Origin: Prevotella sp.
Lineage (GTDB): Bacteria; Bacteroidota; Bacteroidia; Bacteroidales; Bacteroidaceae
Length of the DNA: 47,583 nucleotides
Reading direction: 5' to 3'
NCBI GenBank assembly: GCA_017458005.1
Contig: JAFTGH010000064.1
Span: 1-47,583, forward strand
The notes beneath the pieces were generated by a model. The model had not been told where the DNA came from. It saw nothing but the letters and a program-made list of their open reading frames with translations, and searched no databases. Shown piece by piece: positions 317-16,676 of this stretch. The translations under genes and the position numbers were made by a program. Numbering within the stretch: the first letter of the stretch is position 1; every line of letters begins with the position of its first letter.

Positions 317-1876
317 TTACCTTATAACCATTTTCTTTCCGTTTACGATATAGATGCCTTTCGTCGGATGGGCGACACGCCGCCCTGAAAGGTCATAATA
401 CTGATGAGTGGTCGTGGATGACGACTGCACCCTGTTGATACCTGTCGTGGTATCGAAGCGGAGACGGTTGACAAGTATCGGCGAGGCACCCATATTATAT
501 AATAATAAGGTGTGCTGCCCTGCTGTCAAGGCCACCTCCTGCTCCACATCCGCCCATGCGTCGGCAGTGGAGGGCAACGAGGTATCGAGGAGTTTGTTGG
601 CGGCACCCAGCGCATTGCGATAGATGCGGAAGTCGTTCGCTGTGGACGACTTCATGTGGAGGGTCAGTTTATAGACCCCATCGGATGGGACATCTACCTG
701 GTATGCCGTCCACGAACTGACTTTCCACTCCACCTGCAAGGGGATGTCGCTACCCGTCTCCGTGTTGGGACGCACCTTGGGAACCTGATCGTCCATCGAT
801 GCGTTGACATAGTCCTTGGCGAGGATGTCCTCACCCATCGTATAGTATTTCTCCATGTCGAACGACGACATATAGACATACACCTTACCGAGTTCGGACA
901 ACTCACTGCCTGCGGTGTTCGTCTGGAACACACTCATATAGGGGAAGGAGTTGGCGCCACCAGAGGGGTTAGCCATAAACCAAGCATAGCCAGCCACGAG
1001 GTCGCTCTGCTCCAGTTTCTGCACCTTCTGCACCATCTGGTCGATCTGGAAGTCACGAGTGATACCAGCCTGATAGGGATAGGAGTTCGTCTCCCAAGAG
1101 CAGAACTCCGTGAGGAACATACGGGGATAGTGCCCGTTTGCCGTCTTGTAGTCGTCCATATACTTCACCAGATTGGGATACTTCGCACGGTTGGTGGGAC
1201 CCATCAGGTCTTTCTCGTCCGCCGTCTCGGTATCGCTGTAGAAATAGCGTGAGGCTACCCAGTCGACAGCCGAGTAATAGTTCATATAGGAATGGAAGGC
1301 GAGATAGTCGACCCCTGCATCAGGGACAAGACGGAAGAACTCGTCATACCATGCGAAGGGCTCCCATACCTTCCCACCTACCTGGTCGCCTGTGAAGTTA
1401 AGGGCAGGAGCCACGATCTCCAAATTGAAGTCGGCGGCTATCTGCTTCACTTTCGCCCAACTATTGGCTGCCTGTTGCGGAGTCATCGCCGAGCCGCCCA
1501 CCGCAGTACCGAGGTTAGGCTCGTTGAAGGCAAGCAGGTATCTCACCTCGCCTTGATGAGCCGTCAGATACTGGCGCAGCAAGGTCTCGTTGAAGGCGGC
1601 ATTCCAGCACATCGGCACAAAGGCAATGCTGGTGCCCAAGTTATCAGGAGTACCCGTAGGGGTCGCTCCCCAGTTATAGAGCCAGGCAACACCTGGCGAC
1701 ATCTTCTCAATGGGCGCGGCTGTCAGTGCCTGGGTCTTCTCGTCCCAGCAAACCCCGCGCTTGGCACTGCGTTGCTGTGCCAAGCCGGGGGAACAAACTA
1801 CTAACATAACCACTAAAGACAAAGCGCGGAAAACGCTTGAGTTATCTGACAACAATCTTCTTTCCATTGATGACAT
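317..1876 (-). CDS. Secreted GH128-like beta-1,3-glucanase with C-terminal binding module and T9SS tail
   Basis: Probable endo-beta-1,3-glucanase of the GH128 (Glyco_hydro_cc/Asl1-like) fold, exported and attached or released by type IX secretion. After a hydrophobic signal segment (about residues 17-34, ending GLAQ), the catalytic domain shows LLAFNEPN, whose E119 would be the acid/base, and MFLTEFCSWE, whose E257 would be the nucleophile. Residues about 365-485 resemble a CBM6-type beta-sandwich, and the last 30 residues (YYDLSGRRVA ... GIYIVNGKKMVIR) match Por-type sorting tails. The chosen ATG overlaps the end of the upstream GH16 gene by 35 bases; ATG at 1867 is an alternative. It is the last gene of the glucan locus, probably translationally coupled to the GH16 gene. 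The GH128 assignment rests on the two Glu motifs and the locus context. Confidence 0.8.
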   Translation of the reverse strand: MSSMERRLLSDNSSVFRALSLVVMLVVCSPGLAQQRSAKRGVCWDEKTQALTAAPIEKMSPGVAWLYNWGATPTGTPDNLGTSIAFVPMCWNAAFNETLLRQYLTAHQGEVRYLLAFNEPNLGTAVGGSAMTPQQAANSWAKVKQIAADFNLEIVAPALNFTGDQVGGKVWEPFAWYDEFFRLVPDAGVDYLAFHSYMNYYSAVDWVASRYFYSDTETADEKDLMGPTNRAKYPNLVKYMDDYKTANGHYPRMFLTEFCSWETNSYPYQAGITRDFQIDQMVQKVQKLEQSDLVAGYAWFMANPSGGANSFPYMSVFQTNTAGSELSELGKVYVYMSSFDMEKYYTMGEDILAKDYVNASMDDQVPKVRPNTETGSDIPLQVEWKVSSWTAYQVDVPSDGVYKLTLHMKSSTANDFRIYRNALGAANKLLDTSLPSTADAWADVEQEVALTAGQHTLLLYNMGASPILVNRLRFDTTTGINRVQSSSTTTHQYYDLSGRRVAHPTKGIYIVNGKKMVIR

Positions 1877-4800
1877 ATATACCTTTTCTCAACTGTACGC
1901 GATGACTCTGTACGTCAGAGAGTGTAGCCACACGGCGACCTTGCAGGTCGAAGACCGCATCAGCGTAAGGTACTGCGACAGCAGGCACCTCATTATTACG
2001 GATGACCTGGATGCCGTCTGCATCTGGGTCGGGATCAGGATCCTCTGCTTTCTTCTCACGCCAGAAGAAGACATTATCCAACTGCAGTTCATCACCCGTA
2101 TTGCCACCGCTCATGAACCATACGAGGTTACCCTTGAATGCCGACTGACCGCCGTTGTTCTGAGGATAGAGGTTGGGGAAATGCTGCTTGATAGCCTTAT
2201 AGGGGATATCGAAAGAGTACCACTCGTTATCGCGCTTGTAGTTGCCGATGACAGGAGTATTCTCGTCGAACGGCTGTGCGCCGATGGTAAAGCGTGACTC
2301 GGCAAAACCAATCAGATGGTTGCAGTTGTCAGTACCACGCATCGCGAAGTGCAGATACCAGTCGCCATCCTCCAGGACCGTGAGGTCGGCACCATCAGTC
2401 TCTACGAAGCCGCCACCAGACCAGCCCTTGGCACCAACTACCCAGTCGATCCAGCCCTGTCCCTCGATACCGAAGGAGTTGACAGCATCGCCACTCTTCG
2501 TACCATCGGTATAGCAGTCGCCTTCCCAATTATAAAGTGTATAGTAGCCGGCAAGGATATTCTCATCCTTCGTAGCACCCTCTGTCTGCATGGAGATGGT
2601 AGCCTCAGAGACATTGAAATTGATAAACTCCTTATTCTCCAAAGAGAGATAGCACTCACCACTCTCGTTAAGACTCTTAGTGGTGTAGTCGCCCAGTTCA
2701 CTGACCTCAGGTGTCGAACCGTCTTTCTTCTTCCAGAAGAAGATATTATCGAAAGAGAACCAACTACCTGTATAGTAGGTATCCATCGTATTGAACGCCA
2801 ACAGATTGTCGCCCACAGCGACCTTGCCGTTGCCCTTGCTCCAGAGTTTTCCGTATTTCTTCAATTCAGCCACAGGGATATCGTAAGAGTACCACTCGCC
2901 ATCACGAGGGAAGTCGGCGAAGATAGGATGTGTGCTATAGGCGCCAAACGTCAGGATAGCGTCACTGTTCTCTGCACCGATGCGGACACGGACGGGGACA
3001 TGGGCCACGGCAGCGTCGGAGCGCAGGGAGATATGGAGATAGTAACTATCGTCAATCATCGAGAGGTCTTTCTCCGTAGCCGAGGCGATACCCATGCCGT
3101 TCCAGTTCAGTGCGGTCGTGGAAGCCCATGCGGAGATACCACCCGTATAGACACCTGTGGAGTTAGCGACATCGTCGATATGGTCGCCGACCATCGTACC
3201 TTCCCATGTGTAGTAGTTGTTGCTCTGGGTGTAGTCGGTCTCTGCCTTCACCAGATTCTCCTCTCCATAAGCGCCGTCACCTGTCACACCCTTCCACATA
3301 TCCTCAGAGAGTTGGATAGGAATCATCGTACCCACCTGCTCCAAGTCGAAGGCAGAGGTGCCATCCTCGTTGACGCTCTTATAACCGAACTTGCCTAAGT
3401 CGGCTGTCGTATCCTTATAGGTAGGAATCTCCTTGGTCTTGCTCTTATAGAAGAAGATGTTGTCGAAGGAGATCTCCGCATCCGTCACACCACCACTCAT
3501 GAAGGCGATGATGTTATCGTTGAAGGTGGCAGGCTCGCCTTTGAAAAGCGGAGTCGCAAACTGCTTGAGTGCCTTGACGGGGATATCGAAATAATACCAC
3601 TGACCGTCACGCTTGAAGTCGCCGATGCTGGCAAGTTTGCCATCACTGTTGCCCACGATGAAGTTGGCATTGCTGACAGTGATCTGATGGGAAGTATGAC
3701 GTGCGATGTCGTCAGCCTTCAGGGCGAAATGCAACCAATAGGTATCGTCAATCATGGAGAGATCCTCACCATTGATGTTAAAGCCCAGTCCACTCCAGCC
3801 TGCGCTTGCCACCGTGAACATATTATATCCTTCCTCCCAGCCGAAGGAGTTCGTCTTTCCATCACGGCTGACAGGGACATAGGTATTATCCCAGATATAC
3901 AGGTTGCGGTTGGTATTGTTGACATTATAGTCATAGACATTGGCACCGGCAGCGTAGAGATGTCCTGTCACGCCCTCACTGGTAGAGAGCAGCACGGCAT
4001 CCGACACATCACTGAAATCGAAGGTCGACACACCGCTCTCGTCCAAGGCAAGAGAGGCAAAGCCAGAGAGTTCCGTGGCATTGTCGTCATGATGGTCAGG
4101 CTCCGGCTCATCAGGGATGTTCGTCACCTTCTCGCCATCGGCATCATAATAGAGGTACTGCGCGTCCGCGTCACCCTCTTTCTGGTAGACACGCACCCAG
4201 TCGACATACATCTTAGCCTCGTCGCCAGCATTCGGCAATGCCGTGATCTGTGCGGGGTCGTAGATATTGGTAAACGTACCACCCACTGCGAGGTTGAAGA
4301 GGAAATAGAACGGTTTCTGGAAATAATGACCAGGAGCCATCGCATCGTCAGTGGCTGTGATGCCCAAGGTATAATAGCGAGCCCTGTTCTTACGGGCATT
4401 GTTATAGCCCTCCAGGTCGTAGTACATATAGAGGTAGTTCTCGTCCCACTCGATGGTGAAGATATGGTAGTCGCCCTCTACGGCACCGATAGACTCAAAC
4501 TTCTCTCTGGAGAACTCCTGACTGTTCTGCTGGTGGTGCTCATTCGTGGCATCCGGACCATAGTGCAGGGTACCAGAGAAATAACGGTCCTGCCATCCGG
4601 CATACTCACCAGTGATAGCGTTGAAATGACCCATCTCCACAATATCAATCTCACCACAACGGGGCCAGCCGTAGCGGTTGATGTCATTACCCATCATCCA
4701 GTAGGCGGGCCACAGACCGTTGGCAGTCTTCGGGAATTTGATCTTAGCCTGCATGATACCATGCTTGAAGGCAGCCTTCTGGTTGGAGTTGATACGACCA

Positions 4801-5084
4801 GAGGTGAAACTCTTGCCTTGATAGTTCTCACGCTTTGCAGTCAGTATCAGGTTACCATCGGCAACACTGACATTCTCACGGCGATAGTATTGCAACTCCT
4901 GGTTACCACCACCAGAGCCACTAACCTCAATGCTCCATGCCTTCTCGTTCAAGGCAGTACCATCAAAGTTATCCTCCCACACCAGTTGATAGCCGTCGGG
5001 GGCTCCCTCTATTGCCTGCGCTGAGGCAGTAGTCGGAATGACTACTGCCAACAGAGCACCAAACAAAATATTTGATATTCTCAT
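1842..5084 (-). CDS. Secreted multimodular GH16 laminarinase-type glucanase with T9SS tail
   Basis: Endo-beta-1,3(4)-glucanase of family GH16. The signal peptide ends around ASAQA (residue 24). The GH16 domain spans about residues 28-310 and carries the signature GEIDIVEMGHF, with E145 as nucleophile, D147, and E150 as acid/base. Three related modules of about 200 residues follow, each with a W-Y-x-x-DIP strand (WYYFDIPVKALKQF, WYSYDIPVAELKKYG, WYSFDIPYKAIKQHF) and each closing with a DN-[IV]-FF[YW] motif. These look like carbohydrate-binding beta-sandwiches of unknown class. The last about 40 residues (FDLQGRRVA ... GIYVINGKKIVVR) are a T9SS-type tail. At 1080 residues it is far longer than a bare GH16 enzyme. 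It lies 24 bases after the small T9SS protein and overlaps the next gene, so it is within the operon. Confidence 0.9.
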   Translation of the reverse strand: MRISNILFGALLAVVIPTTASAQAIEGAPDGYQLVWEDNFDGTALNEKAWSIEVSGSGGGNQELQYYRRENVSVADGNLILTAKRENYQGKSFTSGRINSNQKAAFKHGIMQAKIKFPKTANGLWPAYWMMGNDINRYGWPRCGEIDIVEMGHFNAITGEYAGWQDRYFSGTLHYGPDATNEHHQQNSQEFSREKFESIGAVEGDYHIFTIEWDENYLYMYYDLEGYNNARKNRARYYTLGITATDDAMAPGHYFQKPFYFLFNLAVGGTFTNIYDPAQITALPNAGDEAKMYVDWVRVYQKEGDADAQYLYYDADGEKVTNIPDEPEPDHHDDNATELSGFASLALDESGVSTFDFSDVSDAVLLSTSEGVTGHLYAAGANVYDYNVNNTNRNLYIWDNTYVPVSRDGKTNSFGWEEGYNMFTVASAGWSGLGFNINGEDLSMIDDTYWLHFALKADDIARHTSHQITVSNANFIVGNSDGKLASIGDFKRDGQWYYFDIPVKALKQFATPLFKGEPATFNDNIIAFMSGGVTDAEISFDNIFFYKSKTKEIPTYKDTTADLGKFGYKSVNEDGTSAFDLEQVGTMIPIQLSEDMWKGVTGDGAYGEENLVKAETDYTQSNNYYTWEGTMVGDHIDDVANSTGVYTGGISAWASTTALNWNGMGIASATEKDLSMIDDSYYLHISLRSDAAVAHVPVRVRIGAENSDAILTFGAYSTHPIFADFPRDGEWYSYDIPVAELKKYGKLWSKGNGKVAVGDNLLAFNTMDTYYTGSWFSFDNIFFWKKKDGSTPEVSELGDYTTKSLNESGECYLSLENKEFINFNVSEATISMQTEGATKDENILAGYYTLYNWEGDCYTDGTKSGDAVNSFGIEGQGWIDWVVGAKGWSGGGFVETDGADLTVLEDGDWYLHFAMRGTDNCNHLIGFAESRFTIGAQPFDENTPVIGNYKRDNEWYSFDIPYKAIKQHFPNLYPQNNGGQSAFKGNLVWFMSGGNTGDELQLDNVFFWREKKAEDPDPDPDADGIQVIRNNEVPAVAVPYADAVFDLQGRRVATLSDVQSHRVQLRKGIYVINGKKIVVR

Positions 5085-5108: not shown

Positions 5109-6056
5109 TTACTTAATGACTTTCTTCACACCGTTAGCGGTCTTCACCAGGTTCACACCAGGACGGAGTTCCTTGACCTGACGACCTGTGAGGTCGTAGA
5201 AGGCACGTACCTCCTGATCGGCGGCTGTCTTGGTATTCTCGATACCAGAAGACACCTTCTTATAGAGATAGACACCGTCGACGGCAAGGGCAGACCCCTT
5301 CTCGGTGATGGTGATCTTATACATGCCCGTATCAGGATCTACAGCACCCTGAGTAAACTGAGATTCAGTAGCACCGTCGAAACCCACATTGAAGATAATC
5401 GTTCCTGTGGGCTTGCTGAAATCGCACTCGAAGCCATAGTTGCCATCGGGGTCGAGCAAGTCCTTGACGGGGATATCCAGATAATACCATTTGTTGAGGG
5501 CAGGAGCATTGCCTACGCCTATCAAGGTACCAGCCATCTCGCCTACCTCCTTGTTGACCACCAGTTTGATCTCACCACCTGTAGGACCGAAGGTGAACTT
5601 GAAGTTCTTCGTTGCACTCTCGGAACCGATATTCATAAAACCGATGTGCAGGATATGATCCTCTGTGACTGTCGTCAGGTCATAAGGCTGGCTCTTGGCA
5701 CCGAAATGTCCTGCGCCCCAGTCGTAGAGCGGTGTCATATTCAACTTATCGCTACCACCGAAAGAGTTGTTCTGGGTGTCCTCTATATCATATAAGGTAA
5801 ACAATTTGGGATCCCAGTCGGCTGTCCAGTAATAGAACTGGTTCTTGACCATCGCTGGGTCAAGGTTCTGGTTCGACAGGATATTACTACCCATTGCCGT
5901 CACCTGCGCGTCGGGAGCATAGATTACAATATAATCCTTACCTTTTGAGAAGTCGAAACCACCAGTGGGGGCTTCTGTAATGTACTGTGCATTGGCTGCT
6001 GTTGTCATCAGCATCATCATCGCCGTTAAGGCTGCGTTACGAGTAAACTTTTTCAT
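5109..6056 (-). CDS. Secreted T9SS-tailed single-module protein, probable glycan-binding
   Basis: A 315-residue protein with a clear signal peptide (MKKFTRNAALTAMMMLMTTA, cleavage after ANAQ) and a T9SS-like tail (FYDLTGRQVKELRPGVNLV ... KKVIK). The body resembles a single copy of the modules repeated three times in the downstream GH16 enzyme: it has the strand WYYLDIPVKDLL and ends with a VDGVYLYKK strand in place of the DN-[IV]-FF motif. No catalytic residues are recognisable, so binding of beta-glucan at the cell surface is inferred from homology and context only. The gene has its own promoter-like element and the shared upstream box of the locus (6095-6157), so it may be transcribed both from susC and independently, together with the GH16 and GH128 genes. 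Confidence 0.75.
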   Translation of the reverse strand: MKKFTRNAALTAMMMLMTTAANAQYITEAPTGGFDFSKGKDYIVIYAPDAQVTAMGSNILSNQNLDPAMVKNQFYYWTADWDPKLFTLYDIEDTQNNSFGGSDKLNMTPLYDWGAGHFGAKSQPYDLTTVTEDHILHIGFMNIGSESATKNFKFTFGPTGGEIKLVVNKEVGEMAGTLIGVGNAPALNKWYYLDIPVKDLLDPDGNYGFECDFSKPTGTIIFNVGFDGATESQFTQGAVDPDTGMYKITITEKGSALAVDGVYLYKKVSSGIENTKTAADQEVRAFYDLTGRQVKELRPGVNLVKTANGVKKVIK

Positions 6057-6094
6057 GATCGTTCTTTTTTTAAGTTATTAATAGATTTCGACTG

Positions 6095-6127
6095 CAAATT
6101 TAGTGCGAACAAGCCGTTCGCACCAAA
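6095..6127 (-). promoter_or_regulatory. Internal promoter of the glucan locus
   Basis: On the minus strand, TTTG (6124-6127), a 21-base spacer and TAAATTTG (6095-6102) fit the Bacteroidota -33/-7 pattern, ahead of the start at 6056. It would separately drive the T9SS protein, GH16 and GH128 genes. Confidence 0.6.
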
Positions 6128-6130
6128 TTT
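6096..6130. repeat. Inverted repeat covering the internal promoter
   Basis: The arms 6096-6110 and 6116-6130 pair over 15 bases with one mismatch (core GTGCGAAC / GTTCGCAC) around a 5-base loop. The palindrome spans the spacer and both boxes of the internal promoter. It could be an operator, or act as an attenuating hairpin on transcripts coming from susC. Confidence 0.6.
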
Positions 6131-6157
6131 TTCGCCACGCAAAAACCTCACTTTTTG
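6123..6157 (-). promoter_or_regulatory. Shared upstream element, copy 2
   Basis: This 35-base block is 30/35 identical to 13685-13719 upstream of susC. It contains CCACGCAAAAA and CTCACTTTTTG (plus-strand reading) separated by one variable base, and it overlaps the -33 TTTG in both places. Same spacing to the promoter in both copies suggests an activator site. Confidence 0.7.
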
Positions 6158-6160
6158 ACT

Positions 6161-7333
6161 TTACTTCTGATATACACGAACGTAGTCAATCTTCAGTGTA
6201 CAGGGAAGAGCCGACTCGTCGGTGCCGCTCATACCGCCCCAGTTTCCACCCCACGCCAGATTGAGTTTGAGATTGAAGGGAACATCATAGGGCCAATCAC
6301 TTTTACCTGTTCCAGGATTCTCCTTATCCAAAACCAGTTGTCCATCAACATAGGTACGAATGCGGTCTGCCGTCCACTCCAATGCATAGATATGATACTC
6401 ACTCTCTGCCGTTGGCACCCTCAGCGACCGACTCCACGCTCCCTGGGTGTTATTTGAGTGGTTATGACCATCCGCATGCAATGTGCATACAATGACATTA
6501 GGATCAACGCCCACCTCTTCCATGATATCTATCTCGCCACAGCCCGGCCACGGATTGGCTGCCCAGTCGTTATTATAGGGTAGCATCCAGAAGGCAGGCC
6601 ACGTGCCCTTTCCCTTAGGCAGTTTGATACGTGCCTCAAAATAGCCATAGGTCCATCCCTGATTGGTATTCATACGGATAGACTCAATGCGTGACCCGTT
6701 CTTACGTGCCACGATATTCATATAGCCATTCTTGCAGAAACCGACATTGGAACCATTCTGAGGTACTATATAGTATTGTTCCTCTCTGTTGCCCCAGCCA
6801 TTATCACCACGTCCTTGCTCGTACGACCATCCACTGGAAGGAAGGGTGCCTGTGTTGAACTCGTCATTCCATACCAGTTGATAGCCATCTGGGACGTAAG
6901 CCGACGGTGCTGTCATCTCCTCTGGGTCGTCCTCCTCAACAGGAGGAGCAGGAGATTTCTCCTGACTCACCTCTATCACCTCTGTCTTGTTATCAGAGAT
7001 AACTGATACTGAGCCATAACGTGCGTCACCAGTATTCGTTGCCACCGTAATGGTCAAGACACCGACCCGCACACTCTGCGATGCCATCGAGACTGTAAGC
7101 CAATCGGGATTATTCGACTGAACCCTCAACGAAGAGCCTGTTGTGGAAACTACAATATCGCCATAAGAGCCACCAGAGGCAGGAGCCGATATTTGTGTCT
7201 GCGTGATATTGATGACTGTCTCCTGAGGCGGCACATCGCCACCCTCGGTACTATCGCTACCACATGCCATGAACAGTAGCAGCATGGGGCAGAGGAAAAG
7301 GGAAATACTCTTTTTAAACATATCAATACTCAT
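6161..7333 (-). CDS. BACON-GH16 surface lipoprotein glucanase
   Basis: Endo-beta-1,3-glucanase of family GH16, predicted to be lipid-anchored. I start it at ATG 7333: a longer reading from 7363 begins inside a hairpin, and ATG 7321 is also possible. The signal peptide ends in LLLFMAC, so the lipidated Cys is residue 24 from this start. A BACON-type domain follows (about residues 38-125, with NPDWLTVS), then an acidic Pro-rich linker, then the GH16 domain (about 145-390). Its signature GCGEIDIMEEVG carries E267 (nucleophile), D269 and E272 (acid/base). It has no T9SS tail, unlike the other two glucanases of the locus, so it is probably the surface enzyme that makes the first cuts for SusCD uptake. 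It ends 104 bases before the T9SS protein gene. Confidence 0.9.
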   Translation of the reverse strand: MSIDMFKKSISLFLCPMLLLFMACGSDSTEGGDVPPQETVINITQTQISAPASGGSYGDIVVSTTGSSLRVQSNNPDWLTVSMASQSVRVGVLTITVATNTGDARYGSVSVISDNKTEVIEVSQEKSPAPPVEEDDPEEMTAPSAYVPDGYQLVWNDEFNTGTLPSSGWSYEQGRGDNGWGNREEQYYIVPQNGSNVGFCKNGYMNIVARKNGSRIESIRMNTNQGWTYGYFEARIKLPKGKGTWPAFWMLPYNNDWAANPWPGCGEIDIMEEVGVDPNVIVCTLHADGHNHSNNTQGAWSRSLRVPTAESEYHIYALEWTADRIRTYVDGQLVLDKENPGTGKSDWPYDVPFNLKLNLAWGGNWGGMSGTDESALPCTLKIDYVRVYQK

Positions 7334-7351
7334 CTGTTTGATTGGAAAATA

Positions 7352-7390
7352 GGCAAGTGCCAAATGACATCCATGTCATTGACACTTGCC
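7352..7390. terminator. Intergenic stem-loop between binding protein and GH16 lipoprotein
   Basis: GGCAAGTG (7352-7359) pairs with CACTTGCC (7383-7390), and AATGACAT (7363-7370) pairs with ATGTCATT (7373-7380), with a small internal loop and a 2-base apical loop. There is no strong U-run in the minus transcript. It may be a leaky attenuator or an RNA-processing hairpin that sets relative expression within the operon. Confidence 0.5.
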
Positions 7391-7425
7391 CAAAATACTT
7401 CTCTCAATAATTAGAGACTCCTCGT

Positions 7426-8784
7426 CTACTCCTTATGAGTCTGGAGGATAATCTTGGTTATCTTGATTTCTGTGTTGTTCGGGTTACCGCCAAAGTCGAA
7501 GAAGAGTTTCATCTTCTCTGCCGGTGCACCAAGCGTACACTGACGAACCACGACACGGGTCTCTCCACCTGCCACAAGGTCTTGCTCCTTAGCGAAGAAG
7601 AAGTTGTTATCGTCAGAGGCATCAGTCAACTTGAACATTGCCTTGAAGGAAGCGTTAGACTCAACGACGGCAAGGAAGTCATACTCCTGAGTAGTGTCAG
7701 TGATACCGAGAGAGGTCTCAAATGGAACCTGTGCCTGCCAGCGCTCGTATGTAGCCTGTGGCAGAGAAATAGAGATGACACCACCATCAATGGTAACGGT
7801 CGGATCAGGGATCTGAGACCATCCTGGTGCGTAGTAGCCTGGTACGAGTGTCGGGTTGGCATCGTCCCACAGGTTCTCATTCTCACGCCATACTGGCTCG
7901 GGCTCGCCCTTCTCTGGAGCGACGATGGGGTTCTTGGAGTGCTCAATGAACACCAAGTTCTCTATACTGACCTCCGTAGCATCAGGACAGCCACCAAAGT
8001 CGAAGAAGAGTTTCAGATTCTCAATATTACGGCTTGGCATCTCCGTCATATAGAAACAAACGGGCTCACCTGCCTTAACATCCTGCTCCTCTGCGAAATA
8101 GAAGTCATTGTCGTCGTTCGGATTAGTGAACTTGACCATCGCTGTGAAGTCCTTGTTAGAGGTCAGGATGCATGAGAAGTCATAGGTCACGTCGTCGGAA
8201 GCCGTTGTGCTGATATTGGTCTCGAATGGAACCTGACACTGCCAACGCTGTTCTGTACCAACGGGAATCGTCACGGAGATATCCTGACCACGGGTTGAAA
8301 TTGCCAAGGGAACACCTGGATCGTGCCAGTCACCACCTGTTGCATAATAGTAGGAAGCCTGAGTCATCGTAGCCCCGTTGAAGAGGTTATCGCTACTTTC
8401 CGCATCAAAGCCACCGAAGCCGTTCATGCGAGTCTTATCAATATGGTAATTGAATGTCAGCATATCCGTTGAGACACCATTGGCATTCTTCACCATCAGA
8501 TCTACCGAATAGTCACCAGCCTTACGCTGATACTTCTTTGCCGTAAAGTCACCGCTATACTGCGAGCCGTCTATAATCCATACGGGAGAGACACCATTGG
8601 CAGCCTTGAAAGTAAAGTAGGCAGTATTCTCATCCTGCACAACGTTGATCTCAACATTGTCGGCATAGTCAGCAGCCTTGGGGACATTGTTGCCATTCGG
8701 ACTGGCATAATCGTCGGGAGAGCAGGCAGTGAGCGCAAAGACACTGAGCACGACCCCACCCATATATTTGAATATCTTTTTCAT
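7426..8784 (-). CDS. Surface glycan-binding lipoprotein with two tandem modules
   Basis: Probable SGBP-B-like partner of SusCD. The N-terminus is a lipoprotein signal (VFALTAC, lipidated Cys 21). A PKD-like strand-rich domain follows (about 35-120), then two homologous modules of about 150 residues. Both modules carry ERWQ/QRWQ-x-QVPFET, a DDN-[DF]-[FY]-F-[AF]-x-EQD segment and KL-FFDFGG. They resemble CBM4/9-like jelly rolls. There are no catalytic residues. Position immediately after susD (18 bases) and before the GH16 lipoprotein is typical for such proteins. Binding of beta-1,3-glucan is inferred from the neighbours and not visible in the sequence. Confidence 0.75.
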   Translation of the reverse strand: MKKIFKYMGGVVLSVFALTACSPDDYASPNGNNVPKAADYADNVEINVVQDENTAYFTFKAANGVSPVWIIDGSQYSGDFTAKKYQRKAGDYSVDLMVKNANGVSTDMLTFNYHIDKTRMNGFGGFDAESSDNLFNGATMTQASYYYATGGDWHDPGVPLAISTRGQDISVTIPVGTEQRWQCQVPFETNISTTASDDVTYDFSCILTSNKDFTAMVKFTNPNDDNDFYFAEEQDVKAGEPVCFYMTEMPSRNIENLKLFFDFGGCPDATEVSIENLVFIEHSKNPIVAPEKGEPEPVWRENENLWDDANPTLVPGYYAPGWSQIPDPTVTIDGGVISISLPQATYERWQAQVPFETSLGITDTTQEYDFLAVVESNASFKAMFKLTDASDDNNFFFAKEQDLVAGGETRVVVRQCTLGAPAEKMKLFFDFGGNPNNTEIKITKIILQTHKE

Positions 8785-8802
8785 ACTGTTATCGGTTTTA
8801 CT

Positions 8803-10398
8803 TTAATTGAAATATGCATCATTTTGTTTCAAAGAACCCTGAGCACTTGAAATCTCCTTCGAATCGATGGGGATATACTTCTTATTGGGTTTCCAATCAC
8901 CAGAACGACCACGGTCACCTTTGTCATTAACAGGATCCTGTTCTGTCTTCAACAATGCAGAAGCCTTCTGGGTCACACCAGCCACATCCTCCATGCGGAC
9001 AAGGTCCCAGTAACGCTTACCCTCACCCAAGAACTCCAGACGACGCTCTGTCATGATATTGTCGAGTGTTGGCTCCACCTCAGAAACCAGTCCTGCACGC
9101 TGACGCACCTTCGTGATGTAACTCTTAGCCAAAGTGGCATCACCACCAGTACGAACCAGCAGTTCCGCAGCATTCAGCAAAGTCTCAGCATAGCGATAGA
9201 CACGCAGATTGTCGTTCCATCGGCACTGGTCAGAACCACCTGTACCGTCGGCTACATGAGAGTAACGGGGCAGATACTTATTGAGGAACAAGTTCTGGTT
9301 CTGATAACGAGCACCCGGATTGCCTGGCTCACCATCGAGGAGTGTCACATCGCGACGCTCGTCGTTGGCTGCATAGAGGTCAAGACAAGTACGACGAGGA
9401 ACAAAAGTACCCCAACCGTTATTAGCAACATCAGGATCAGAAGCGACACCGCCATCAGGACCAAGAGCCTGGCACTGGAAAGTACCGCCAATAAAGCCAA
9501 GACTGGTGCTGTAAGGGTCACTGCCGTCTGGATAAGAGCGAATACAGAGAGGACCATCCGTGTAGTTCACCTCGAAGATGGACTCATCGCACCACTCGCC
9601 ATCAGGTGACCAAAGATGGGCGAAACTATTGTCTAGACTGTACTGATTACTATTGATAATAGCCTTCATATAGTCAAGAGCCTTGGAAAAACGAGTCTGG
9701 TCGTTTTGGTACATCACTAGTTCTGCATAGATCATATAGGCAGTAGCCAGAGTAGCATGTCCCTCCTCACCAGCGGCAGCACGCATAGGCAGCACGTTGG
9801 CATTGATCGCACTCTCCAAATCGGTGATAATCTGCTCATAGGCATCGGCAGGAGCCGACTGCTCTATCGTCTCACTGGCATCAAGAGGACGCATGAAGAC
9901 AGGAATGTTACCATACCACTTCCACACTACAGTATAATAGAAACTACGCAGTACCTTGAGTTCCGCAGTAGCCTTCTGGGCAAAACTCTCAGAGATTTTA
10001 TCCTTGTTGGTCTCAATGGCACCGATAATGTCATTACATGCCTTGATACCATCGTAACTAACTGTCCAGTACTGACTGAGGGTCTTGGATGCCGTCAGTT
10101 TGAAATCAGCGGCATTATACCATGCCTCCTGGTCTGTGACACCTGCTGAACCCGTCAGCATGTCATCGCCTAGGATATCAGCCCAGTTGAGTTGACCGAA
10201 GATAACGCCATTGTAATCGTAATTATGAATAGGAACATAGGCTCCTACAAGTCCTTCCGTAAGGTGCTCCTCTGTAGCGTAGTATGAAGCCACATCGCCC
10301 TTGGTCTGAGGTTCCTGCTCCAGGAAACTGTCTGAGCAACTGGTCATAGTCAGTGCTGCTGCCAGAACGCCAATGGATAATATATTTAATGTTTTCAT
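8803..10398 (-). CDS. SusD/RagB-like nutrient-binding outer membrane lipoprotein
   Basis: SusD-family protein that forms the lid of the SusC porin and captures oligosaccharides. The signal peptide ends LTMTSCSD with the lipidated Cys at residue 21. The helix-rich body has features of the family: an early FLEQEPQTKGD segment, SYDGIKACNDII, the alpha-helical repeat region around residues 100-230, and the C-terminal RYAETLLNAAELLVRTGG and RRLEFLGEGKRYWDLVRM stretches. At 531 residues the length is usual. It sits 32 bases downstream of susC and 18 bases upstream of the binding-protein gene, so it is clearly in the same operon. Confidence 0.95.
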   Translation of the reverse strand: MKTLNILSIGVLAAALTMTSCSDSFLEQEPQTKGDVASYYATEEHLTEGLVGAYVPIHNYDYNGVIFGQLNWADILGDDMLTGSAGVTDQEAWYNAADFKLTASKTLSQYWTVSYDGIKACNDIIGAIETNKDKISESFAQKATAELKVLRSFYYTVVWKWYGNIPVFMRPLDASETIEQSAPADAYEQIITDLESAINANVLPMRAAAGEEGHATLATAYMIYAELVMYQNDQTRFSKALDYMKAIINSNQYSLDNSFAHLWSPDGEWCDESIFEVNYTDGPLCIRSYPDGSDPYSTSLGFIGGTFQCQALGPDGGVASDPDVANNGWGTFVPRRTCLDLYAANDERRDVTLLDGEPGNPGARYQNQNLFLNKYLPRYSHVADGTGGSDQCRWNDNLRVYRYAETLLNAAELLVRTGGDATLAKSYITKVRQRAGLVSEVEPTLDNIMTERRLEFLGEGKRYWDLVRMEDVAGVTQKASALLKTEQDPVNDKGDRGRSGDWKPNKKYIPIDSKEISSAQGSLKQNDAYFN

Positions 10399-10430
10399 AT
10401 TCTTATACTATTATTATTCGTTAATAATGA

Positions 10431-13400
10431 TTAGAAGCCAATGTTGAAACCAAAACTGAAGGTTCGAGCCTGTGGATAGACACCATAGTCAACACCAAGA
10501 GAGGTTCCACCAGAGGAGATTTCAGGATCATAGCCATGATACTTGGTGAAGGTCACCAGATTCTCGGCAGCGACAAACAGGCGTAGGCTCTCAACAAAGA
10601 AGCGTCTGGTAATGCTCTGAGGCAGGGTGTAACCCAATTGGATATTCTTCAAACGCAAGTAACTACCATCGGAAACATAGAGGTCTGAGGCGACAAGGTT
10701 AGCAGTATTACCCACTACGTAGCGAGGAACAGAGTTAGAGGTACCCTCGCCAGTCCAACGTCCCAGCATCCAAGAAGGCAGGTTCTGGTTCTGCTTGTCC
10801 ACACGCATAGTTGCATCGTAGATGTCGTTGCCAGCAGTACCCTGCCAGAACATCATGAAGTCGAAGCCACGCCACTCGGCATTGAAGTTAAAGCCGAAAG
10901 TCCAGTCGGGCATACCCTTACCAATCTTGGTCTTATCATTGTCGTCAATCACTCCATCCTCATTGGTGTCCACAAAGCGGAAGTCACCAGGAGAAGACGG
11001 TGAAATCAACTCACCAGCCGCATTGGTATGATACTTGGCATTATATTCTGCTGCCTCAGTCTCGTTCTGCAAGATGCCATTGGTCTTGTAGCCGTAGAAG
11101 TAAGGCCAAGGCTCACCGTTCTTACCACGTGTGAACGTTCCCATACCCATCATACTGTCATAGTCCTGCGTTCCTGTTGCATTACCAAGGTTCAGCAACT
11201 CGTTCTTGAGGTAGGAGGCATTAGCCTTGATAGCAAACTTAGCATCGGAAATACGGAACTTATAGCCCAGTTCGAACTCAATACCCGAGTTCTTCATCTC
11301 GCCGACATTCGCCATCGGCTTCATCAGACTGACATAGTCAGGAATCGGGTTATACATCAGCATGCCTTTGGTCTTCTTCACATAGTAGTCCACACTAAAA
11401 GTCAATGCATTGCTGAGGAAGCCGAAGTCAACACCAAGGTCAGTCTGTACACTCTCCTCCCATTTCAAGTCTGGATTAGCAGGTGCTCCTACACGTGTAC
11501 CTACCATACGTGTGGGATCGGCACCGAAGATATAGTTGCTGTTTCCCGTTCCAGAAGTAAAGGCGGCATACATGAAGTTACCGATGTTCTCATTACCGTT
11601 CTTACCCCAACTGAAGCGGATCTTCATATTGTTCATGATATTCTTTACAGGATCCATAAACTTCTCATTGGTGACATTCCATCCTAAAGAGAAGGAGGGG
11701 AATGTGGCATAGTGGTTGTTGCTTCCGAACTTAGAAGAACCATCTCGACGGATAGTGAACTGTGCCATATATCGCTCGTCGTAGTTATAACTGGCACGAG
11801 CGAAGAGAGAGGCAAGGGTAGCAACATCCCAAGGACCAGCACTTGCGCCTACGTCACCTGCGTCGTAACCAGTAGCATAGTCAACCCAAGGCTTTGTATA
11901 GTCTACCAAATAGTTCTTCGAAGCATAGATGCTGAAACCAGTGGTCTTTTTTGCAGACTGTCCGAGAACAACACTGATATCGTGCTTGCCGAAAGTCTTA
12001 GCCCAAGAAAGAACATTCTCCAACTGCCATACCGTCATGCGCTGTGAGTTAGAATTGGCACCATCCTTGCCACCCCAGTTGAAAGACTGGGTGAGGTAGA
12101 AGGGAACGGTATAGCCACGGTCGGTGCCATTGTACTGCACATCGGCACCATAACTGATGCGATACTTGAAACCGTAGCCCAACGACAGGTCTGCGGCAAA
12201 GTTGGCGGTGTAGTCATGCACCCAACCCCAAGGTGCCAGATGAGCGGTATTCATAAAGGCAACAGGGTTCATCTGGTTGTCATAGTCAGAGCCAGGAACC
12301 ATATAGAGGTTGCCATCGGCATCATACTGCGGAACGAAATTAACACCGTTGCTGCTCTGATAACCAGCCAGCACGTCAGCAATCTCATCCCCCTTGTAGA
12401 CGACAGGCAGTGTCGGAGCCAGGGTCAGGGTAGAGTTAAGGACACCATTACTGCGGGTGTTGGGATCAATACCAGCCTGCTTCGTACGGGTGTAAGACAC
12501 GTTGACCGTGATATCCAACTTATTCAGCCAGTCGCGATCCTTGGTATCGTCAAAGATATTGTACTTGGTATTACTACGCAAAGTCAGACGACGATAGTTC
12601 GACTTGCTGAAATTACCACCGACAATACCATCTTGAGAATAGTAACCCAAAGACAGATAGTAATTCATTTTCTCTGTAGCACCACTGATGCTGACCTCAT
12701 GATTGCTTACAGGCGCATTGTCGTTAAAGAGTTCGTCCTGCCAGTCTGTGCTATTCTTCTTGAAAGATGCCAGTTCTTCCGCAGTATAACGAGGACGCTG
12801 ACCGCTGTTGATGTAACCTTCGTTCATCATGACACCATACTCATAGGCATTCAGCACGTCACGTTTGCGCCACTTGTTCTGCCATCCGAAAGTAGCGTTG
12901 TAATTGACTTTTGTCTTGCCAATCTTTCCGCTTTTCGTGGTAACAAGGATAACACCATTGGCAGCACGGGCTCCATAAATAGCACCAGAGGCTGCATCTT
13001 TCAGCACCTCGATAGACTCGATGTCGTTCGGATTGAGGTTATCAATACCTGTCTCGCAGGGCATTCCATCTACAATATATAGAGGATCGCTGTTATTAAT
13101 AGTACCGATACCACGCACACGAATCTGAGAACCAGCACCCGGAGCACCAGAAGAACTGGTCACCGTCACACCTGCGGCAAGACCCTTCAGGGCATTGTCC
13201 ACACGAACAGGAGCCTTGCCCGCCAGATCATCAGCCGAGACCTTGGCGATAGAGGCGGTTACCACACTCTTCTTCTGGACACCGTAACCTACTACGACTA
13301 CCTCATCGAGTAGTTTGGCATCCGATTTCATCACAATGCGAAGACCGTCAGCAGCCTTCACTTCCTGAGTAATGTTACCAATGTAGGAGACCACCAGGGT

Positions 13401-13586
13401 AGAACCCTCATCGACAGACACCATGAAGTTTCCATCGAAGTCAGTCACCGTTCCATTAGTAGTTCCCTTCTGCACCACAGAAGCACCAATAACCGGTTCG
13501 CCAGTCTCATCGACAACGACACCCTTATAGGTGTGCTTTTGGGCAAAAGTTGTTGCTGACATCATTAGAAATGACAGCAAGACCAT
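10431..13586 (-). CDS. SusC-like TonB-dependent outer membrane transporter
   Basis: TonB-dependent porin for import of glucan oligosaccharides. In the longest in-frame reading the protein starts MVLLSFLMMSATTFAQ, which lacks the usual positively charged n-region. It then has a CarboxypepD_reg-like domain (YKGVVVDETGEPVIGASV), a TonB box and plug (DEVVVVGYGVQKKSVVTASI; LYIVDGMP; IESIEVLKDAASGAIYGARA; ANGVILVTTKSGK) and a long beta-barrel ending in FGFNIGF. Just upstream, ATG at 13606 opens AAAAAAGTAAG; adding a single A to that run would read MKKSKFLMVLLSFLMMSATT in frame with this ORF. The true start is therefore uncertain: a sequencing error, a slippage site or a weak start at 13586. It is the first gene of the operon, behind a good promoter. 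Confidence 0.93.
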   Translation of the reverse strand: MVLLSFLMMSATTFAQKHTYKGVVVDETGEPVIGASVVQKGTTNGTVTDFDGNFMVSVDEGSTLVVSYIGNITQEVKAADGLRIVMKSDAKLLDEVVVVGYGVQKKSVVTASIAKVSADDLAGKAPVRVDNALKGLAAGVTVTSSSGAPGAGSQIRVRGIGTINNSDPLYIVDGMPCETGIDNLNPNDIESIEVLKDAASGAIYGARAANGVILVTTKSGKIGKTKVNYNATFGWQNKWRKRDVLNAYEYGVMMNEGYINSGQRPRYTAEELASFKKNSTDWQDELFNDNAPVSNHEVSISGATEKMNYYLSLGYYSQDGIVGGNFSKSNYRRLTLRSNTKYNIFDDTKDRDWLNKLDITVNVSYTRTKQAGIDPNTRSNGVLNSTLTLAPTLPVVYKGDEIADVLAGYQSSNGVNFVPQYDADGNLYMVPGSDYDNQMNPVAFMNTAHLAPWGWVHDYTANFAADLSLGYGFKYRISYGADVQYNGTDRGYTVPFYLTQSFNWGGKDGANSNSQRMTVWQLENVLSWAKTFGKHDISVVLGQSAKKTTGFSIYASKNYLVDYTKPWVDYATGYDAGDVGASAGPWDVATLASLFARASYNYDERYMAQFTIRRDGSSKFGSNNHYATFPSFSLGWNVTNEKFMDPVKNIMNNMKIRFSWGKNGNENIGNFMYAAFTSGTGNSNYIFGADPTRMVGTRVGAPANPDLKWEESVQTDLGVDFGFLSNALTFSVDYYVKKTKGMLMYNPIPDYVSLMKPMANVGEMKNSGIEFELGYKFRISDAKFAIKANASYLKNELLNLGNATGTQDYDSMMGMGTFTRGKNGEPWPYFYGYKTNGILQNETEAAEYNAKYHTNAAGELISPSSPGDFRFVDTNEDGVIDDNDKTKIGKGMPDWTFGFNFNAEWRGFDFMMFWQGTAGNDIYDATMRVDKQNQNLPSWMLGRWTGEGTSNSVPRYVVGNTANLVASDLYVSDGSYLRLKNIQLGYTLPQSITRRFFVESLRLFVAAENLVTFTKYHGYDPEISSGGTSLGVDYGVYPQARTFSFGFNIGF

Positions 13587-13657
13587 TAAAAACTTACTTT
13601 TTTCATACGTTAGTTGTTTTGAACATGATTAATAGTAATGTCGCTTAATTTTGGTCG

Positions 13658-13689
13658 CAAAGGTAGAGTTTAAACGCATACGTTCCAAA
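13658..13689 (-). promoter_or_regulatory. susC operon promoter
   Basis: The minus strand reads TTTG (13686-13689), a 20-base spacer, then TACCTTTG (13658-13665), a near-ideal Bacteroidota promoter. The untranslated leader would be roughly 45-65 bases. Confidence 0.75.
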
Positions 13690-13719
13690 TAAATCACCAC
13701 GCAAAAAACTCACTTTTTG
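13685..13719 (-). promoter_or_regulatory. Shared upstream element, copy 1
   Basis: This 35-base block matches 6123-6157 at 30 of 35 positions and sits at the same place relative to the -33 box. It lies between susC and the divergent regulator gene, 33 bases before the regulator's -7 box, so it could also serve autoregulation. Confidence 0.7.
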
Positions 13720-13751: not shown

Positions 13752-13759
13752 TATCTTTG
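13752..13759 (+). promoter_or_regulatory. Promoter -7 box of the regulator gene
   Basis: TATCTTTG lies 31 bases ahead of the ATG at 13791. I see no clear -33 TTTG at the expected distance, consistent with a weak or activator-dependent promoter. Confidence 0.5.
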
Positions 13760-13790: not shown

Positions 13791-16676
13791 ATGAGGAAAC
13801 TGCTAACAACCATACTACACCTTATTATATATATAGGCGTATATGCTCAGCAACCCATGCTACGCAACTTCCAGGTAAGTGACTACCGAGGGGGCACGCA
13901 GAACTGGTGTATCGACATGACAGGCGCCAACCGCCTCCTTGTTGCCAACAACGCAGGACTGCTACGCTATGACAGCAGATGGTGGCAGGCTTTTGCCCTG
14001 TCGAATTTCAGTAATGTCAGGAGTATCTTGTATGACCCCACCTACAATCATGTATGGGCAGGAGGTACCAATGAGTTCGGTTGCTTCGAGGCTAATATTA
14101 ATTCTTTTGCCAACTACCACTCCGTATCAGAACGGCTACCCAAGGAACGACAACAGTTCGGAGAGATATGGAAAATATTAAAACTAGGGGACGACTATAT
14201 CTTTCAGGCAAAGAAAGACCTGTTCTTCCTGCATCGTGACAGTACACTCAGTTTCATGAGCACCCCCTTCTCGATAGATTGCTCCGCTATCATTGAAGGT
14301 CGACTGCTAGTCGCTGACGAAACGGGAATCTATGCGGTAGAGAACAACAAACTATCTACTCCTTTGCCAAACTTAGAGGAACTCAAGGGAAAGACGATAT
14401 ACGCCATCCTACCCTACCAACAGCAGATGATTATCTGTACTACGGTAGACGGACTGTTCATCTATGACGGGAATCAAACCCGCCCCTTTGCTACAGACCT
14501 GACCGCCTTCCTCTCCAACAACCAGATATTCTGTGCCGCCATCCAGAATGACATGCTTGCCATCGGCACCATAAGAGACGGATTGGTACTTCGCAACCTG
14601 AAGACGGGGATGAACCAATATGCCAATACAAGAACGGGACTTAGCAATAATACTGTTTTGTCCATCTGTTTCGACCGCATTGACAATGTATGGTTAGGAC
14701 TGGATCAGGGCATCGCCTATGTGATGCCGACCTTCCCTGCTTCCTATCTATTAGGGAAACAGAGTCCTATTGGTGCTGGCTATGCCTCTATCGTTTATGG
14801 CAACAACCTGTATATGGGTACTAACCAAGGACTCTTTACGACGCCCTACCCCTTGTCCAGTTCCCCAACACCACCAACACCACAATTGATTAATGGCATG
14901 ACAGGGCAGATATGGTGCCTCAATAATATCAACGGGACATTACTTTGCGGCTGTAATTCTGGAACATATATCATCAATGGACAACAGGCACGGAAGATAC
15001 AAGGACCTGAAGGTACCTTGTGTTTCCTACCGTTGCGCCACCATCCCGGCTATATCTTAGGATCTGACTATCTGGGACTTTTCCTACTGAGCGCCAAGGA
15101 TTTTAGTTTCGTCGGACGTGTCGCTGGCTTCGAAGAGTGTAGCGGTGCATTGTTGGAAGATCGTGATGGAAGTGTCTGGATGAGTCACTGGCAGAAAGGA
15201 ATCTACCGTCTGACACTCAATACGGATGCCCGACAAGTTGTAAAGGTTGACAGATTTGGTAAAGACAACGGACTACTGGTTGACGCTGAGAATCAGATTT
15301 GCCAGATTAACGGACGTATCCTGATTTCCAGCGTAGACGGCTTACATTACTATAACCCCAAAACAGGAAAGTTGACAAAGGATGAGAAGATGAGTAAGGT
15401 CTTCAACACCTACGGCACCTCTCTGCGCCTCTTCGAGACACCTGCCCATGATATCTGGGCATACAAAGCAGACTATCTAGCCATAGCCCACCCCAAAAGC
15501 AATGGTAACTATGAGGTAGACACCTTATCCTATAAAGGATTCGCACATGAATTGCAGATGGGTTTGGGATTCCCCTATTTCATTGCCGACAAAGACCAGA
15601 CCATCCTGAATAGTCTGAACGGATTTATCATAGCAGACAACAAGACGACCAGTAAGTTATATGAAACAAAACTGAAGATAGAACTTATCGAAAGTACCAA
15701 TCACGGTGACTCCCTCCTTTATGTCTGTGCGGCTGATACCATTGGACGAACTTTCCGCATCAGTCATGACAACAACTCCTTACGTATCACCTTCACCATG
15801 CCTGAGTATATGCGCCCAGAGGAAATTGAATATTCCTGTTGGCTGGAAGGTTATGACCATACATGGAGTGATTGGCAAAAAGGTTATACTAAGGACTATA
15901 CCTATCTTCCCAAAGGCAAATACACCTTCCATGTGAAGGCAAGAAACAAAATGACGGGTTTCGAGGACGAGAAATCTATCAGTATCGAGATTCTGCCTGC
16001 ATGGTATGAGACATGGTGGGCGTATACGCTCTACCTGCTATTGATAGCAGGCGTCGCTTGGATGCTCGTCAAGTGGATCCAAAGCAGACAAAACCGTAAA
16101 CTGGACGAGTTAAGAGCGCAGAAGGAAAAAGAGATGCGCCAGCAACAGGCGGAGTTCGAACTGGAACAGCAGAAGAAAGAAAGTGAACTGACCCGTCTGA
16201 GAAACGAGCAACTGGAGACAGAACTCAAGCATCGCCAGAGTGAACTGGGCGACTCCACGATGAACCTGATGCGCAAGAATGACATGCTACAGGCGCTCGA
16301 CACCCAACTCGACGAACTCTCAGAGAGCGTCAGAAGAGAGGACACAAAGTCGAAAATTACCCAGAAGATCAAGGATATCCGCCACGACATACAAAACAAC
16401 ATCAACGAAGACGAGGGTTGGGATAAATTTGAGGAGAACTTCAACTTGGTTTACGACAACTTCATGAAGCGACTCACCAATCGCTTCCCCGACTTGAAGA
16501 TGAACGACCGCAAACTGTGTGCCTACCTGCGCATGGGACTCTCCTCAAAGGAGATGGCATCACTGCTCAACACCTCCGTTCGTAGTATCGAGACCGCCCG
16601 ATATCGCCTACGCAAGAAACTGGGTATGGAGCAAGGTGATAACCTAGTGGAGTTTATCCAGACTTTTGAGGAATAA
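13791..16676 (+). CDS. Membrane-spanning Y_Y_Y / LuxR-HTH regulator of the glucan locus
   Basis: Predicted one-component sensor-regulator. The N-terminal signal or anchor (ILHLIIYIGVYAQ) leads into a long periplasmic region with beta-propeller-like repeats (for example TGLSNNTVLSICFDRIDNVW) and a Y_Y_Y domain at about 665-735 (CWLEGYDHTWSDWQKGYTKD). One membrane helix follows (about 740-762, YTLYLLLIAGVAWMLV), then a long charged coiled coil (about 768-860) and a C-terminal LuxR-type helix-turn-helix (about 900-961, MGLSSKEMASLLNTSVRSIE). It resembles the periplasmic part of hybrid two-component systems but has no histidine kinase, receiver or AraC domain. It is divergent from susC and ends at a strong hairpin. 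It probably senses a glucan oligosaccharide and activates the locus; that role is inferred from position. Confidence 0.85.
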   Translation: MRKLLTTILHLIIYIGVYAQQPMLRNFQVSDYRGGTQNWCIDMTGANRLLVANNAGLLRYDSRWWQAFALSNFSNVRSILYDPTYNHVWAGGTNEFGCFEANINSFANYHSVSERLPKERQQFGEIWKILKLGDDYIFQAKKDLFFLHRDSTLSFMSTPFSIDCSAIIEGRLLVADETGIYAVENNKLSTPLPNLEELKGKTIYAILPYQQQMIICTTVDGLFIYDGNQTRPFATDLTAFLSNNQIFCAAIQNDMLAIGTIRDGLVLRNLKTGMNQYANTRTGLSNNTVLSICFDRIDNVWLGLDQGIAYVMPTFPASYLLGKQSPIGAGYASIVYGNNLYMGTNQGLFTTPYPLSSSPTPPTPQLINGMTGQIWCLNNINGTLLCGCNSGTYIINGQQARKIQGPEGTLCFLPLRHHPGYILGSDYLGLFLLSAKDFSFVGRVAGFEECSGALLEDRDGSVWMSHWQKGIYRLTLNTDARQVVKVDRFGKDNGLLVDAENQICQINGRILISSVDGLHYYNPKTGKLTKDEKMSKVFNTYGTSLRLFETPAHDIWAYKADYLAIAHPKSNGNYEVDTLSYKGFAHELQMGLGFPYFIADKDQTILNSLNGFIIADNKTTSKLYETKLKIELIESTNHGDSLLYVCAADTIGRTFRISHDNNSLRITFTMPEYMRPEEIEYSCWLEGYDHTWSDWQKGYTKDYTYLPKGKYTFHVKARNKMTGFEDEKSISIEILPAWYETWWAYTLYLLLIAGVAWMLVKWIQSRQNRKLDELRAQKEKEMRQQQAEFELEQQKKESELTRLRNEQLETELKHRQSELGDSTMNLMRKNDMLQALDTQLDELSESVRREDTKSKITQKIKDIRHDIQNNINEDEGWDKFEENFNLVYDNFMKRLTNRFPDLKMNDRKLCAYLRMGLSSKEMASLLNTSVRSIETARYRLRKKLGMEQGDNLVEFIQTFEE

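Follow-up and report, generated by a model that had tools for sequence, protein, structure and literature searches.

The 47,583-nt stretch of Prevotella sp. DNA analysed here (the window) carries minus-strand genes of a glucan locus and, divergent from them, a plus-strand gene for a 961-aa regulator (13791..16676) with a Reg_prop and Y_Y_Y sensor and a C-terminal NarL/LuxR-type helix-turn-helix (HTH). Nearest the regulator, domain searches identified a SusC/RagA-type TonB-dependent transporter (10431..13586), followed by a SusD-family lipoprotein (8803..10398) and a GH16 enzyme with a BACON domain (6161..7363). Further along, past a 315-aa secreted-looking protein with no family assigned (5109..6056), they identified a 1080-aa GH16 enzyme with a long C-terminal part (1842..5084) and a Glyco_hydro_cc enzyme (PF11790; 317..1876). 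We take the PF11790 enzyme to be GH128-like, and GH16, GH81 and GH128-like enzymes presumably act on beta-1,3-glucan. SusC, SusD and GH16, hallmarks of a beta(1,3)-glucan locus, are thus present; the fourth, a surface glycan-binding protein, is probably the 452-aa lipoprotein-like product of 7426..8784, which has no Pfam match and is assigned by position only.

Two 35-bp blocks at this locus, 6123-6157 and 13685-13719, are identical at 30 of 35 positions in pairwise comparison, and at 22 of 23 across a core 23-mer; the earlier note's figures proved exact on recount, and identity beyond the blocks is chance-like (3/20 to the right, 6/20 to the left). At up to three mismatches the core pattern matches twice in the window, a number attained by none of 100 shuffles. 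The core of putative operator copy 2 (13697..13719, minus strand; CAAAAAGTGAG/TTTTTTGCGTGG on that strand) lies between the SusC operon and the divergent regulator gene, where one copy had been claimed, and SusC is the first gene after it. That of putative operator copy 1 (6135..6157, minus strand) lies directly past the gene for the BACON-containing GH16 enzyme and upstream of the 315-aa protein/GH16/Glyco_hydro_cc operon; the 315-aa protein gene, first after this copy, comes after the site in several relatives too. Judging from gene order, each gene group behind a copy is likely to be one operon.

Each copy is followed on the minus strand by a TAnnTTTG -7 box, the promoter consensus of the sigma type usual for Bacteroidota: TACCTTTG (13658..13665) 31 bp downstream of copy 2, and TAAATTTG (6095..6102) 32 bp downstream of copy 1. 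These boxes place the predicted transcription starts near 13650-13652 and 6087-6089, respectively. The earlier note had described a -33 TTTG that overlaps the block and is separated from the box by 21 and 20 bp. The spacers are as described and the TTTG does fall inside the 35-bp block, but in either copy it follows the conserved 23-mer 7 bp downstream. Of the parts of the element it is the weaker one: across relatives a TTTG starts 6-10 bp after the 23-mer in 24 of 53 sites, and a TTG does so in 36 of 53. A TTTG at the -33 place in fewer than half of the sites is what we would expect of activator-dependent promoters.

We searched the whole source genome (3.05 Mb; assembly 92% complete) and found the core three times at up to three mismatches, against no match for a reversed control. 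A sequence-only promoter model, built from 37 composite promoters with the box at 31 or 32 bp, so that the box is conserved by choice, likewise gave three full-length matches, at 62.7 bits (copy 2), 54.5 bits and 51 bits (copy 1). All three copies were in the model, and the result is therefore the gap of 31 bits to the rest: the fourth-best match, at 19.6 bits, spans only model positions 14-63, the promoter half. The third copy (C3:139778-139800; model match C3:139737) lies on another contig, 336 bp from its end; behind it come genes that encode a 1049-aa F5/8/Big_2 protein, a 733-aa protein and a 1630-aa GH81 protein. In a relative, G301, one contig holds all three copies in colinear order, and the sequences corresponding to the C3 end and to the window from about base 140 onward are contiguous; because of this synteny we assign the third copy to the glucan locus. 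What separates the C3 end from the window in this genome is a stretch that G301 lacks, probably a mobile element, which would explain the contig break. All three copies thus fall within a single beta-1,3-glucan locus. The earlier note had proposed a two-promoter regulon under the Y_Y_Y/LuxR-type regulator, to be doubted if many copies lay away from glucan genes; the genome holds none of these, and the shared regulon is supported, with three promoters instead of two.

Two near-identical copies within one locus could also be left by a recent promoter duplication, or by a mobile repeat, retained by chance. Against this, the flanks are at chance identity and the genome has no dispersed copies; the reading is already contradicted by distant relatives whose regulators are 43-58% identical and in which the site keeps its place, and we give it next to no weight.

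Read in promoter orientation, the element consists of an A-tract and GTGAG followed by a T-tract and GYGWR, an 11-bp direct repeat. We examined 55 sites scoring at least 17, from 35 loci chosen as holding a locus-linked site. GYGWR lies at offset +11 in 45 of 53 distinct sites, 11 of which have a perfect second GTGAG there. By offset, the GTGAG pentamer finds its best match at +11 (0.63) and its second best at +9 (0.55), and with +9 scoring nearly as high we hold the direct-repeat reading with moderate confidence. The distance to the promoter is similarly regular. Of the 55 sites, 44 have the start of TAnnTTTG 31 or 32 bp past the 23-mer, and another five have it 41 or 42 bp past, roughly one more helical turn away. 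Of the six sites with no box at either distance, three have it at 55 bp, preceded by a second GTCGTAG copy whose end is 32 bp from the box, one is cut by a contig end, one is the distal copy of a tandem, and one has no box. At -22/-23, 13 of 63 sites have an extra half-site, GTGAGG with at most one mismatch (mean per offset, 0.73). Of tandem full sites near the 67 or 77 bp spacing of SusR-like motifs, a single locus, L046/L062, gave an example, with a distance of 76 bp. With steps of about 11 bp, the repeats and the promoter stay on one face of the helix.

A/T tracts make up a large share of the element, and the alignment of the 37 promoters shows some tract positions to be invariant, as would suit a protein-free promoter feature, an UP-like or bent tract that raises basal strength. 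Yet GTGAG is invariant in the same alignment (partly an effect of how sites were selected), other promoters of the genome score on the downstream half of the model only, and no site was found next to a regulator whose recognition helix differs. We therefore regard a purely structural element as very improbable.

The regulator has a signal-like N-terminus, a single hydrophobic segment (both read from the sequence by eye, with no predictor) and a long helical stretch ahead of its HTH. Pfam reports Y_Y_Y at 34.9 bits (cut-off 26.6) and Reg_prop at 21.9 bits (cut-off 20.4), the latter with no single stretch passing alone, and detects no kinase, receiver or AraC-type domain at E-values up to 0.001. 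The Y_Y_Y part matches by sequence the solved sensor structures of hybrid two-component systems (HTCS) 4a2l, 3v9f, 3va6 and 3ott. In profile searches the one Pfam match of the HTH, Sigma70_r4_2, reaches 19.3 bits against a cut-off of 25.7, and the NCBIfam matches MctR and TtrR lie far below cut-off. An AlphaFold model of the C-terminal 182 residues (mean pLDDT 81.5; 81-93 in the HTH block) has the four-helix HTH fold of the NarL/LuxR type. Foldseek against the PDB places the DNA-binding domains of LiaR, DosR and VraR on top, then RcsB and FixJ, with the sigma factor CnrH at rank 34 and NarL at rank 42; for isolated domains TMt is about 0.7-0.8 and the probability 0.98-1.00, with a best E-value of 0.097 and none below 0.001. 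The protein would thus resemble an HTCS sensor mounted on a one-component LuxR-type regulator. It is the only full-length regulator of its kind in the genome; nine other matches cover the Y_Y_Y region only, some with a stretch beyond.

To compare site and regulator across relatives we collected 80 loci from named genomes via a regulator profile (A1), chosen regardless of the DNA element, and scanned them with a matrix built from 27 sites; the reversed matrix gave three matches of at least 12 in all 80 loci. The anchored count adds the window, G301 and further loci, with duplicates counted once, and a locus is positive if its upstream sequence holds a divergent site scoring at least 19. Where the regulator HTH reaches 81% identity or more and the upstream sequence extends for 500 bp, 26 of 29 loci have the site. 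Where the HTH is at most 72% identical, with at least 300 bp upstream, the site is found in 0 of 53 loci, with a best divergent score of 9.8. Eight of the 29 loci had supplied training sites for the matrix; 18 of the 21 others have the site. Dropped from these counts were duplicates (L212, L213, L220, L221, L223), loci with an HTH at least 79% identical but less than 100 bp upstream (L076, L081, L082, L086, L150, L225, L226), loci in which the HTH is not covered (L214, L087), a sister locus with 152 bp (L088) and loci with no regulator (L211, L216, L218). The three misses comprise a shortened regulator with no glucan genes adjoining (L092/G342), a locus with one site 20 kb away (L217/G162) and one with a site 0.9 kb away (L222/G317); no recognisable glucan gene was found after the latter two sites. 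Six isolated matrix matches of 12.5-13.7 in sister loci were taken as background.

A census of 398 same-genus genomes used regulator residues 204-961 as query (E ≤1e-100) and the promoter model for the site. The regulator is present at 41% identity or more in 21 genomes, and at 30-35% in 11 more. At E ≤1e-6, a limit chosen after the list was seen, the promoter model matches 22 genomes, namely 18 of the 21 with the regulator and 4 of the 377 without (Fisher p 1.4e-24, uncorrected for kinship). At 1e-8 the figures are 16 of 21 and 1 of 377, and at 0.01 as many as 206 of 398 genomes match, the weaker ones listed mostly on the promoter half. Many of the 18 positives had supplied model sequences; by contig G075, G162, G317 and G361 had not. 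Among the four genomes with a site and no regulator, G233 has a glucan locus cut by contig ends, in G140 a fragment of the regulator HTH survives some 5 kb away from the site, and G049 and G089 have weak matches for which we found no explanation. Conversely, the three with a regulator and no census site are G123 (2e-5), G342 and G298, in which the regulator is in pieces and no site is seen. A further scan for the element gave 33 places in 19 of the 398 genomes, against 10 matches in 9 genomes for the reversed control; the matches in G342, G216, G130, G395, G257 and G201 look, from their raw flanks, like chance or contig-end repeats, and that in G201 was also judged chance-like from gene context. 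Across relatives the element thus accompanies the regulator, in the anchored loci as in the census.

In these sequences, presence and type of the site also follow the regulator's recognition helix. With the helix triplet ETA, 23 of 26 loci have a GTGAG-type site; with ETF, three of three do, all with the variant second half GTCGTAG; with other helices, 0 of 53 do. We then looked upstream of the 53 sister regulators for exact 7-mer direct repeats, a motif-free count, and the offsets peaked at 11: 12 loci have a repeat there, the next best offset has 6, and offsets 8-99 average 1.48, with no offset exceeding 4 inside genes. In 8 of these 12 loci the repeated word is TGATGTA or a one-base shift of it. 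TGATGTA-N4-TGATGTA, 11 bp apart and with at most one mismatch in all, is present in 10 of 17 sisters with an EIS helix, and in 0 of 36 non-EIS sisters and 0 of 29 GTGAG-type loci, in a test that is exploratory since the word had been spotted earlier in the same loci; at the same stringency the pair is absent from this genome. Pedobacter and Mucilaginibacter sisters (EIR helix) have 9-mers in common but yielded no clear element. Related regulators share ancestry, so that site counts are non-independent and p-values overstate.

These patterns raise the prospect of a phylum-wide code, in which membrane-bound, one-component Y_Y_Y/LuxR-type regulators of Bacteroidota would bind 11-bp head-to-tail repeats upstream of TAnnTTTG and in helical phase with it, and a few helix residues would set the half-site (ETA, GTGAG/GYGWR; ETF, GTGAG/GTCGTAG; EIS, TGATGTA). 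We judge the chances for and against such a code to be about even; if it is true, targets become predictable from protein sequence.

Taken together, the element is very probably the operator of the divergent 961-aa regulator, bound head to tail and activating three operons and possibly the regulator gene itself. The link to the regulator, which the earlier note had inferred, is backed by genome specificity, co-occurrence and the recognition-helix match, lines of evidence that share descent and are thus only partly independent. Activation rather than repression is suggested by position only. In the mechanism that we propose, the periplasmic sensor half would bind a glucan oligosaccharide imported by the SusC/D pair, and the helical linker would place a pair of LuxR-type HTHs in head-to-tail arrangement on one face of the DNA, a helical turn apart and beside the -33 region, from where contact with RNA polymerase would activate the three operons. 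Since the element lies at promoters of the sigma type that Bacteroidota generally use, it might instead be bound by a different factor that also serves these promoters, for instance a global sugar regulator or an alternative sigma factor, with the neighbouring regulator a bystander. A global factor fits poorly with three genome sites all in one locus, however, and any other factor would have to account for site presence that tracks the regulator across 398 genomes and for presence and type that track its recognition helix; we consider a bystander role unlikely.

Control of the regulator by its own operator is possible in this genome, since the -7 box of the regulator gene, TATCTTTG (13752..13759, plus strand), lies 32 bp on the far side of operator copy 2; binding there could either raise or damp regulator expression. 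By sequence this does not appear to be a family trait. The regulator's own TAnnTTTG lies 32 bp beyond the element both in the window and in L032, 33 bp beyond it in L062, and 43-44 bp in L079, L080 and L083, the last with another at 12 bp. The nearest one is more than 100 bp off in 19 of 26 loci examined, and none was seen in L070.

The results provide a specific predicted site for one little-studied class of Bacteroidota fibre-digestion regulators, and a three-operon regulon with a candidate helix-to-site rule is now testable; one cultured relative that carries the system is Xylanibacter brevis ATCC 19188 (locus L075). Such a site would make regulons predictable in uncultured Prevotella of rumen and gut, and would supply a defined operator on which to build glucan-responsive promoters. 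Among the entries listed in our literature searches, which covered few subscription journals and no regulon database, none defines a Y_Y_Y/LuxR-class site. We regard regulon and operator as new examples of a general kind already known, activator sites at polysaccharide loci; this reading is well supported computationally, and the architecture may extend to a wider regulator family.

The closest parallels lie among known glycan-utilization regulators. In the accessible text of Ravcheev et al. 2013 (PMC3878776), SusR-like systems of Bacteroides share with this one a locus-specific regulon, a membrane-anchored periplasmic sensor and a predicted direct-repeat site, but their boxes are 67 or 77 bp apart, against 11 bp between half-sites here, and their HTH is called unlike other known factors, whereas the fold predicted here is NarL/LuxR-like. 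Their spacing is echoed in two same-genus sisters (L228, L229), with TGATGTA-type copies 66 bp apart. HTCS of gut Bacteroides have the same Reg_prop/Y_Y_Y periplasmic sensor and direct-repeat sites, on average 21 bp apart according to that text, but our regulator has no kinase, receiver or AraC-type domain by Pfam. The beta(1,3)-glucan loci (1,3GUL) of Dejean et al. 2020 (PMC7157763), in the text accessible, likewise combine GH16 with SusC/D and a surface glycan-binding protein within a single locus, and in the legend of Fig. 1 a 'SusR-like sensor-regulator' is mentioned alongside HTCS. The present locus differs in adding Glyco_hydro_cc and GH81 genes; GH3, which belongs to the 1,3GUL core set in that text, is absent among the 13 proteins scanned here and adjoins sites in relatives L047 and L050. 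Finally, the predicted DNA-binding fold is that of NarL/LuxR-type response regulators (LiaR, DosR, VraR, RcsB, NarL), but here it would belong to a one-component, apparently membrane-bound protein fused to a glycan sensor, with a head-to-tail 11-bp repeat as its putative operator.

Comparing the same place in G301, a relative that carries all three operator copies colinearly on one contig, we found that it lacks the sequence at the end of contig G000:C3 (L034:19860-20000) as well as window positions 1 to about 140. From this sequence comparison, the two stretches are probably the two ends of one mobile element, which would probably sit between the third-operon promoter and the Glyco_hydro_cc gene. 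In G342, a same-genus genome with a shortened regulator, one sequence resembling the operator element recurs in identical form at three contig ends (C9:43, C9:51983 and C18:43); it is probably a repeat or insertion sequence with no link to glucan.

The Glyco_hydro_cc protein has a short C-terminal tail (window 317-400) in common with several products of site-driven genes (L034 proteins), probably a secretion signal. As annotated, the reading frame for Glyco_hydro_cc shares 35 bases with that for GH16 (window 1842-1876), which suggests translational coupling or a later start.

Locus L046 (= L062) contains a tandem operator pair 76 bp apart (L046:10027-10125), in which the strong operator lies 33 bp from the -7 box (TAnnTTTG) of the regulator and the weak operator is separated from the divergent -7 box by 31 bp.

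Upstream of the Pedobacter sister regulators, whose HTH has diverged, the eight loci (L125-L141) have words in common, for example ACAAAGTAA (6/8) and TTTAGCATA (5/8); these may represent the promoter box or a different operator. Upstream of same-genus sister regulators (30-31% identity), L228 and L229 carry TGATGTA-type copies spaced 66 bp apart, close to the 67-bp spacing that PMC3878776 gives for SusR-like motifs.
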